This document shows positions 18,407 through 20,273 of a DNA stretch of 64,000 nt, one piece after another. The stretch lies in contig JAHBVL010000003.1 of the NCBI GenBank assembly GCA_019637585.1, positions 91,827 to 155,826 on the forward strand. Direction: 5' to 3'. The position numbers were made by a program, and so were the translations under genes. Positions within the stretch are counted from its first letter, which is position 1. Each line of letters starts with the position of its first letter. The notes below the pieces were generated by a model that ran no database searches, was not told where the DNA came from, and saw only the letters and a program-made list of their open reading frames with translations. This stretch comes from Thermomicrobiales bacterium (GTDB lineage: Bacteria > Chloroflexota > Chloroflexia > Thermomicrobiales > UBA6265).

Positions 18407-18422
18407 CGGCCCGCCTACGCTC

Positions 18423-18448
18423 GTAGTTCGGGCACCTGTGGCCCGACG
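18423..18448 (+). repeat. GTAGTTCGGG...GGCCCGAC repeat copy
   Basis: Near-identical to the copy at 59903-59927. It lies 16 bp after the stop of the C45 hydrolase and 4 bp before a heptamer array. At both 18.4 kb and 59.9 kb this repeat is joined to a heptamer array. Confidence 0.75.
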
Positions 18449-18452
18449 TTAG

Positions 18453-18508
18453 CAGTCGGCAGTCGGCAGTCGGCAGTCGGCAGTCGGCAGTCGGCAGTCG
18501 GCAGTCGG
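18453..18508 (+). repeat. CAGTCGG heptamer, eight perfect tandem copies
   Basis: Exactly eight head-to-tail copies of CAGTCGG (56 bp) without a mismatch. The reverse-complement unit, CCGACTG, is also found as GACTGCY units at 39463-39490. The array forms the 3' boundary of a decayed minus-strand gene. Confidence 0.95.
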
Positions 18509-18760
18509 ATAGAGCATCGATTGCCTTCCCACGCGCCGATGGCGGTCAGCGCACGCGGCTTCTTCTCCGTCAGCGGAATGCCCAGCCATTCCGGCCAGAG
18601 CCGCCGATCGAACCCGTGCTCGTACGGATGCCCTGGCACACCGCGAAAACGCTCGGCAAAGACCTTTGGGTAGCAGTGGTCGCAACCAGCCAATACCCGG
18701 GCATCCGGTCATCGGATTCCAAGTAGCGTCGGTCTGTTTGATGGGCGTAACAAGTAGCAT
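18509..18760 (-). pseudogene. remnant of DUF5131 (phage Gp37/Gp68-like) gene
   Basis: Translation from 18760 gives TPIKQTDATWNPMTGC, then the reading frame shifts and continues as GCDHCYPKVFAERFRG and VPGHPYEHGFDRRLWPEW to LTEKKPR. These pieces match in order the start of DUF5131/Gp37-Gp68 proteins (TDATWNPVTGC...GCDHCYAERFAERF...KPR), phage-associated proteins with a cysteine cluster. Between the two conserved cysteines 16 nt remain where about 18 are expected, a 2-nt deletion. The rest of the gene is gone, cut off at the CAGTCGG array. Family assignment is by recalled motif similarity. Confidence 0.6.
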
Positions 18761-18982
18761 GTCTTCTCCTGAACGCCCGCGCTACGTGGCGATGCCAGCG
18801 AACACCGACGCAGTTAGTCAGAAAAGAACATTTGTACTATACTGCATCCAAAGAGCGGACCTATAGGATGTGCTGTCACGGCTCCCGTGCCTGACCGCTC
18901 CCCACCACTAGTCTTTCGGTCGCCGAATTCACGGTGCAACTTGCTATCTTCTCTTTGCTGCATCAATATGACGGTGTTATGA

Positions 18983-19789
18983 ATGGAATCGGTTGCCATG
19001 CAGCAATCTAGTACCAGACAGTTCGTCATTCAATTGGATGACACAACGTCGCTTCAGCGCCTCGCTCGCGCTATGGAGGCTTGGGATGAAGCGATGTCCA
19101 AGACGACCGAGATGATCGGACCTGATCATGTTCTCGGCATTGAAGTAGAGGATTTGTCTCCAGGTAGTGCAATGATTTCGTTGCTTGGAACGTTTGACAG
19201 CGACCAATCGGCCAACGATTTCACGGCGGAGATCGTTCGCTTCAATCGTGCTGTAGGCAGTGGAAAGATCGACGCCTTGCCACCGAAGTTGCAGTCGACA
19301 GCAATTCGAATGAGAAAAGTTTCGGAGCTGGACAATGGTGCCGGAATGGTACTAGCGACCCAGGATGAAGATGTCTACGTGGCTCCCACGAGAGATGGAG
19401 GGGGCAACATCGTTCCTTTCCGTTACGAAGCGAGGAAGTCCGAATCGTATGGTGTGCTAACAGGTCGACTTCAGCAGATTACCAGTCGCTCGGGCGTTCG
19501 AGGGTCGCTCTACGACGTCGTTTTCGACCGAGCGGTTCGAATCTACTTCAACCCGGATGCCGCTGAGGAACTGCGCCAGAAGTGGAACAAGGAGGTACAG
19601 GTAACAGGACTGATTCGGCGGGACCCAGCTTCTGGTCTGCCTCTGTCAGTGCGAGATGTCACCTCTACTGTTGAACTCGAATCGAAGGTCAACCCAGACG
19701 CATGGCGGGTTGCGTATGGTGTGCTCTCGGGCCAACTTCCTGATGTACCCTCTGCCGAGCTCGTAAGGCGACTTCGCGAGAATGACTAG
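18983..19789 (+). CDS. unrecognised 268-aa protein, possible antitoxin partner of PIN protein
   Basis: I do not recognise this family. It is soluble-looking with no signal or membrane segment. The first half (about residues 10-120) is mixed alpha/beta with many acidic residues; the middle (about 150-225) contains GVLTGRLQQIT, SLYDVVFDRAVRIYFNP and VQVTGLIRRDP, which suggests a small beta-barrel or OB-like fold. Its stop overlaps the start of the PIN gene by 8 bp, so the two are translationally coupled. Local GC and codon use are clearly lower than in neighbours, suggesting transfer. Start ATG 18983 or 18998; neither has a strong ribosome binding site. Confidence 0.75.
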   Translation: MESVAMQQSSTRQFVIQLDDTTSLQRLARAMEAWDEAMSKTTEMIGPDHVLGIEVEDLSPGSAMISLLGTFDSDQSANDFTAEIVRFNRAVGSGKIDALPPKLQSTAIRMRKVSELDNGAGMVLATQDEDVYVAPTRDGGGNIVPFRYEARKSESYGVLTGRLQQITSRSGVRGSLYDVVFDRAVRIYFNPDAAEELRQKWNKEVQVTGLIRRDPASGLPLSVRDVTSTVELESKVNPDAWRVAYGVLSGQLPDVPSAELVRRLREND

Positions 19790-20273
19790 CAGGATATACC
19801 TCGATACGTCGACGATTATTAGCTATCTCAACAGCGAGGGCAGGCGTGGCAATGTGATGAAGACCGCGCTAGAATCGGCAGCGAGCAACTCTTCATTTCT
19901 TCTGTATACTTCTGTCGCATCAATTGCAGAAGTAGTACACATCCTTGAGGCGAACCGGGTTCGTCCCGAATCTGGTCCCACGATCGACATGTTCTGGGAC
20001 ACAGCGCCCATCACGAAAGTCGAAATCAACGAGATATCTGCAAGAGAGTGTCGATCGTTGACGCGATTTCGATACTTCGGGAACGGCAATCGGGCCAAGA
20101 CCGACGTCAGCAAACGCTATACGATTGATGCGATTCACTTGGCGGTAGCGCGCTGGTTGCAGTGCGACGAACTGTGGACATATGATCCAAAGCATTTCCA
20201 AGCATTCAATGAACCGCCAGAGCTCGCAATTCGCGAACCGCACATGGACCAGCTGATGCTAGAAGGAATCTAG
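19782..20273 (+). CDS. PIN-domain protein (VapC-like ribonuclease toxin candidate)
   Basis: 163 aa. The four PIN acidic positions are visible: Asp in RIYLDTSTIISYL, Glu in SIAEVVHIL, Asp in TIDAIHLAVA and Asp in LWTYDPKHF, consistent with a Mg2+-dependent ribonuclease. It is longer than classical VapC (about 130 aa). The preceding gene overlaps it by 8 bp, the layout of type II toxin-antitoxin operons, but that partner is twice or three times the size of a usual VapB and shows no AbrB, RHH or Phd motif. Confidence 0.8.
   Translation: MTSRIYLDTSTIISYLNSEGRRGNVMKTALESAASNSSFLLYTSVASIAEVVHILEANRVRPESGPTIDMFWDTAPITKVEINEISARECRSLTRFRYFGNGNRAKTDVSKRYTIDAIHLAVARWLQCDELWTYDPKHFQAFNEPPELAIREPHMDQLMLEGI

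Follow-up and report, generated by a model that had tools for sequence, protein, structure and literature searches.

Most antitoxin families consist of small proteins that bind DNA. Among the described systems closest to the locus discussed here is VapBC, in which a PIN toxin carrying a set of acidic residues is encoded behind an overlapping antitoxin gene, and VapB itself is a small protein of the AbrB, ribbon-helix-helix (RHH) or helix-turn-helix (HTH) kind. FitA offers a known precedent for neutralization, as its arginine-bearing tail blocks the active site of the PIN partner. Further PIN-linked antitoxins of the DNA-binding type (COG2442, COG2886, COG1753, and a MerR-like family) have been catalogued (Makarova 2009, PMC2701414). 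Here, we describe a two-gene module of a Thermomicrobiales bacterium, located in a 64,000-nucleotide stretch of contig JAHBVL010000003.1 (hereafter the window), in which the gene for a PIN-domain protein (open reading frame 2, ORF2) is preceded by that for a much larger protein of 268 amino acids (aa; ORF1). In our view, the two probably constitute a type II-like toxin–antitoxin module, made up of a VapC-type PIN toxin and a large antitoxin that would be built on an oligonucleotide/oligosaccharide-binding (OB) scaffold and would neutralize through its tail.

A first-pass annotation, made from the letters of the window, had reported two overlapping frames, the second with all four acidic residues of a PIN nuclease. 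Both frames are indeed present on the same strand, and the features are as follows:

18983..19789, plus strand: ORF1, predicted antitoxin of 268 aa (conserved family in alignments; AlphaFold2 model)
19010..19381, plus strand: N-terminal alpha/beta domain (b-a-b-b-a-a-b-b), ORF1 residues 10-133, from the secondary structure of the model
19436..19678, plus strand: OB-fold barrel (b-b-b-a-b-b), ORF1 residues 152-232, predicted from the model and VIA-align
19679..19786, plus strand: flexible C-terminal tail, ORF1 residues 233-268, predicted to neutralize the toxin (linker of low model confidence, then a helix at 257-267)
19782..19789, plus strand: overlap of ORF1 and ORF2, 8 bp
19782..20273, plus strand: ORF2, PIN-domain nuclease and predicted toxin of 163 aa
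19803..19805, plus strand: PIN catalytic D8, invariant in 23/23 PINs of the family
19929..19931, plus strand: PIN catalytic E50, likewise invariant (23/23)
20127..20129, plus strand: PIN catalytic D116, likewise invariant (23/23)
20184..20186, plus strand: PIN catalytic D135, present in 22/23, with N in the remaining one

Judged by comparison with its relatives, ORF1 may truly start at the second ATG (18998, M6). ORF2 matches the PIN family PF01850 with an E-value of 8.7e-8, scoring above the family cut-off, and its nearest solved chains by profile are VapC and FitB. Since the catalytic acids are conserved and the nearest solved relatives are these two proteins, the ORF2 nuclease is probably active.

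ORF1, on the other hand, belongs to a real and widespread protein family that was found in none of the databases or papers searched. It has no convincing match to Pfam, NCBIfam, PHROG or PADLOC models, and a sequence search of solved structures returned nothing for it. The best PADLOC hits, both to candidate models, were not significant (E 0.018 for ORF1 and 0.0042 for any relative); the one to PDC-M07B (E 0.018 to ORF1) was put down to chance together with the other weak matches. The core family comprises 35 loci from whole-genome and contig searches, mostly in Chloroflexota (Thermomicrobiales, Oscillochloris, Anaerolineales, Dehalococcoidia, and others), with further members in one Methylomirabilota genome (L007) and in viral contigs. 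In genome contigs, a scan with the single ORF1 sequence gave no relatives, whereas an alignment-based scan did; an alignment across the whole family proved too varied to scan contigs with directly. The collections of plasmid and phage records gave no match to several family members used as queries and therefore hold no close relative. The spread is patchy, as even a broader profile that also counts distant relatives finds matches in only 33 out of 400 Chloroflexota genomes.

The first-pass annotation had asked for a neighborhood survey of this pairing and had regarded a 268-aa family occurring mostly without the PIN gene as fatal to its proposal. The survey turned out in favor of the pairing. 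Two of the 35 core loci stop at a contig edge (L004, L012), leaving 33 with readable downstream DNA, and in 30 of these a PIN gene or its remnant follows directly on the same strand. It is intact in 27, frameshifted in L021 and L024, and truncated in L037, while the three loci without a PIN (L023, L025, L029) all come from a single family of genomes and appear decayed. Of the 27 intact core pairs, 24 have an overlap of precisely 8 or 11 bp, the exceptions being L019 and L020 (+9) and L035 (+5). Altogether, the same gene order is seen at about 40 further loci, and neither the pairing nor the overlap can be put down to chance.

The association also holds in the reverse direction. A query of viral contigs with the PIN only retrieved 14 contigs, 10 of them new, and an ORF1 homolog sits immediately upstream in all 14 (hidden Markov model E-values of 1e-7 to 1e-58). 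Among the 400 Chloroflexota genomes, each of the 21 PIN matches with an E-value of 1e-25 or lower has an ORF1 homolog next to it. For the matches that follow (3e-21 and weaker), ten loci were read, most of which show a small VapB-like protein of 71-93 aa in front of the PIN. Because most of the 21 had helped build the profile, this second search mainly demonstrates that it brought up no orphan PIN of the group, and the viral-contig query is the stronger reverse test. An intact PIN of this subfamily standing alone did not turn up in the 400 genomes or the viral contigs. Pairwise distances of ORF1 and PIN correlate with r = 0.93 (Mantel; exceeded by none of 2000 permutations), a value to which shared descent with the host can contribute. 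Decay, moreover, runs mostly one way: the PIN is frameshifted next to an open ORF1 in L021, L024 and L064, and gone in L023, L025 and L029.

Some loci carry rearranged forms of ORF1. In a phage contig (L037:4500-5412; L069 lies on the same contig), an unrelated N-terminal sequence is fused to the OB domain and tail, and the PIN is truncated; this arrangement may be what recombination left behind or an antidote carried by the phage. In L127:4983-6489, a segment that by eye resembles the beginning of an IS1595-type transposase takes the place of the N-terminal domain. It continues in frame into the OB region, and an intact PIN still follows. A similar transposase adjoins a broken ORF1 relative in L061.

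The part of ORF1 that would contact the toxin is suggested by its C-terminus. The core-family tail ends in a conserved 'E..IRrlRD', with R262 and R265 as the arginines of ORF1. The VapB tails encoded next to the next-closest PIN genes ('DYIRQERDSW') resemble it, strongly in two out of nine cases and weakly in the rest, a likeness that we regard as suggestive. More informative are the distant ORF1 relatives L062-L067, proteins of about 305 aa found by profile search (L067 is cut by its contig), which align with the core family over 216 columns (hhalign E 1.4e-18). L063, L065, L066 and L067 precede PINs of a different group (Pfam 1e-10 to 1e-12), and the PIN of L064 is frameshifted. L062, however, precedes a RelE toxin (PF06296, E 7.5e-7), and its C-terminal residues 269-299, at the same position as the ORF1 tail, align with the C-terminus of NF050107, the model for the RelN antitoxin (E 8e-6), which ORF1 itself does not match. 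The L062 match stays below the full-length RelN cut-off, as expected for one that covers the tail only. These sequences thus retain the scaffold, whereas tail and toxin change together. Such partner and tail swapping is an antitoxin signature, and it provides the strongest argument for ORF1 being an antitoxin with the tail as its neutralizing part. At the same locus (L062:1348-2253, minus strand, for the RelE-paired relative), an ORF that looks by eye like a PemK/MazF toxin lies upstream.

To describe the scaffold, we rely on an AlphaFold2 model built on 36 sequences, with a mean predicted local distance difference test (pLDDT) of 83.8 and a predicted template modeling score of 0.58. The N-terminal alpha/beta domain is tentatively ferredoxin-like, given weak Foldseek matches to 2op5, 3fmb and 1q8b (obtained with the whole model and presumably due to this region), and possibly serves dimerization. 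The middle part, in which the first-pass annotation had suspected a beta-barrel, is predicted to adopt an OB fold: the model displays a five-stranded barrel with a helix after strand 3, in the correct order. VIA-align places it closest to single-stranded DNA-binding protein (SSB), with a Z of 9.4 and a root-mean-square deviation of 3.6 over 79 residues, and the OB domains of PriB, RecG and AspRS come close behind. In addition, the OB-fold family tRNA_anti-codon of Pfam is matched by 5 of 27 relatives (best E 4e-4), and in a separate model of L063 (pLDDT 75.8) the elements follow one another in the same order, with an OB fold at a Z of about 10. No AbrB, RHH, HTH or Phd domain was detected by Pfam (27 core and 5 distant sequences) or NCBIfam (36 relatives). 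The two predicted models likewise combine an alpha/beta domain with an OB fold and contain no AbrB, RHH or HTH domain, so the earlier remark that the 268-aa protein lacks a recognizable DNA-binding motif is borne out by scans and models alike.

How might such a module work? Translation would begin with ORF1, which the gene overlap would couple to the toxin, and ORF2 would act as a VapC-type PIN ribonuclease and thus as the toxin. The antitoxin scaffold would consist of the N-terminal alpha/beta domain, probably for dimerization, and the OB barrel, from which the flexible tail with its conserved arginine helix may reach the PIN and block the acidic active site, similar to the tails of FitA and VapB. 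The barrel, which would stand in for the usual AbrB, RHH or HTH DNA-binding domain, probably has nucleic acid as its ligand and may thereby serve autoregulation or respond to a signal that sets the toxin free. The sequences themselves show the pairing, the overlap, co-inheritance, the intact catalytic residues, decay mostly in one direction, the change of partner and the mobile setting; the OB fold and the flexible tail are predicted, and toxicity, neutralization by the tail and a regulatory or sensory role of the barrel are inferred from these. The first-pass annotation had left the choice between an unusual neutralizer and a sensor; the PIN linkage, the RelE swap and the RelN-type tail argue, as far as sequence goes, for a large neutralizer, that is, an antitoxin.

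Several observations weigh against this interpretation. At about 268 aa, ORF1 is far above the size of ordinary type II antitoxins. The similarity between the core tail and VapB tails is weak and exceeds all shuffles in only two of nine comparisons, and the RelN match concerns one sequence (L062) and its tail only, with 26.4 bits against a full-length cut-off of 70. Tail neutralization may also not be universal, because in L019, L020 and L035 the ORF1 tail is short and the overlap absent, with the PIN intact. Lastly, an inverted repeat that could serve as operator was not found in the upstream region 18780-19000.

The surroundings of the module point to mobile DNA. Its guanine-cytosine (GC) content is 53.0% compared to 62.7% across the window, and the 1.3-kb stretch of lowest GC in all 64 kb starts at 18801, in line with the lower GC noted at first pass. 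The phage-gene debris mentioned there is equally recognizable:

18415..18760, minus strand: frameshifted phage-gene remnant adjoining the module, with a 57-aa piece matching phage genes

This piece has matches in 77 records of Mycobacterium and Gordonia phages, the best ones at 58-62% identity. Next to the remnant, window positions 18440-18510 contain a short tandem repeat that reads as GSRQSAV repeats. In G002, whose RNase Y is the most similar among the relatives compared (86%), the MATE gene stands immediately before rny, whereas in the window an insert containing the ORF1/ORF2 module keeps the two apart. Several viral contigs have the module beside genes for terminase and portal proteins (L037-L040, L068, L127) or beside one for an integrase (L123, L124), all recognized by eye from translations. 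By its sequence neighborhood, the module thus resides in phages and other mobile DNA.

This context brings us to the main rival, namely a phage-defense (abortive-infection) module with ORF1 chiefly as a sensor, whose OB barrel would recognize phage single-stranded DNA (ssDNA), RNA or an SSB-like phage protein and thereby switch the PIN on. It is compatible with, rather than opposed to, the toxin–antitoxin interpretation, but we hold it to be rather unlikely. The resemblance of the barrel to SSB and PriB speaks for it, as do the prophage and phage contigs in which modules lie by terminase, portal or integrase genes. Furthermore, both ORF1 domains are covered by the best viral-structure matches, among them a DUF6575 protein from a phage, and DUF6575 is part of an E. 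coli anti-phage system found by experiment (PMC9519451). However, no known defense gene was identified beside the module in the neighborhoods read, PADLOC gave no convincing match, and the likeness to DUF6575 is one of structure, with no match to PF20215 in ORF1 relatives or in the window's own genome. Neither of the two DUF6575 loci in Chloroflexota has a PIN gene next to it, and for this reason the DUF6575 lead was not adopted. At both of these loci (L070, L071), a different uncharacterized ORF of similar sequence precedes the DUF6575 gene, and the two genes possibly form a separate module. A bolder version would merge both ideas into a modular superfamily of OB-fold antitoxins doubling as phage sensors, with swappable tails that neutralize PIN or RelE and an SSB-like barrel that detects phage nucleic acid or SSB and frees the toxin. 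We give this a small but real chance; if true, it would reveal that prophages carry a class of abortive-infection systems that is widespread yet unannotated.

Two further explanations appear less plausible still. ORF1 and ORF2 could be a housekeeping or regulatory two-subunit RNase, the OB protein binding RNA and presenting it to the PIN. OB folds commonly bind RNA or ssDNA, and the operon is stoichiometric and co-inherited, but the very patchy occurrence just described for Chloroflexota, the mobile context, the preferential loss of the nuclease, and the RelE partner swap with its RelN tail render this option improbable. Alternatively, the locus could be an ordinary VapBC, with an antitoxin DNA-binding domain that is conventional in kind yet strongly diverged. 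Gene order, overlap and PIN type are all VapBC-like, and the tail weakly resembles VapB tails. Yet the domain make-up of the two models, and the lack of any Pfam or NCBIfam antitoxin domain in the scanned relatives except the one RelN tail, make this very hard to believe. The preferred reading thus remains a toxin–antitoxin module with a large OB-fold antitoxin.

Such a superfamily of 250-310-aa antitoxins, whose two partner toxin types are unrelated to each other, would bring a further scaffold into the type II toxin–antitoxin network and may account for some VapC genes that seemingly lack an antitoxin. It also makes a question testable, namely what role an SSB/PriB-like fold plays in an antitoxin, be it autoregulation or phage sensing. 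The open-licence literature searched yielded no OB-fold antitoxin, although the ORF1 family may be listed elsewhere, for instance in supplementary tables or subscription papers, as an unnamed cluster. The main text of the NetFlax survey (PMC10440598) likewise makes no mention of an OB fold.

Compared with the described systems, the PIN half is of a known kind, while the antitoxin family and its folds appear, from sequence and model, not to have been seen in known antitoxins of this type. SSB, PriB, RecG and AspRS share the OB fold with ORF1 residues 152-232, without a detected sequence relationship or a known link to toxins. FitAB of Neisseria (2h1o/2bsq) has a PIN toxin related by profile, but FitA is a small RHH protein unlike ORF1. 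The families of Makarova 2009 (PMC2701414) were likewise recognized by their PIN linkage, and none has an OB fold. RelN/RelE shares the RelN-type tail and RelE partner with L062, but RelN is a small antitoxin (79 model positions), whereas the tail of L062 sits on an OB scaffold. The Panacea antitoxins (PMC10440598) similarly combine one scaffold with several toxin types, although the domain differs and only PIN and RelE partners occur here. With VapBC, finally, the module has in common the PIN toxin with its acidic site, the upstream and overlapping antitoxin gene, the likely neutralizing tail and the mobility. It differs in that an antitoxin of about 250-310 aa with an alpha/beta and OB scaffold takes the place of the small DNA-binding VapB. 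Because this defining feature of VapB fails, we do not class the locus under VapBC and describe it instead as a VapC-type toxin joined by a new candidate antitoxin family.
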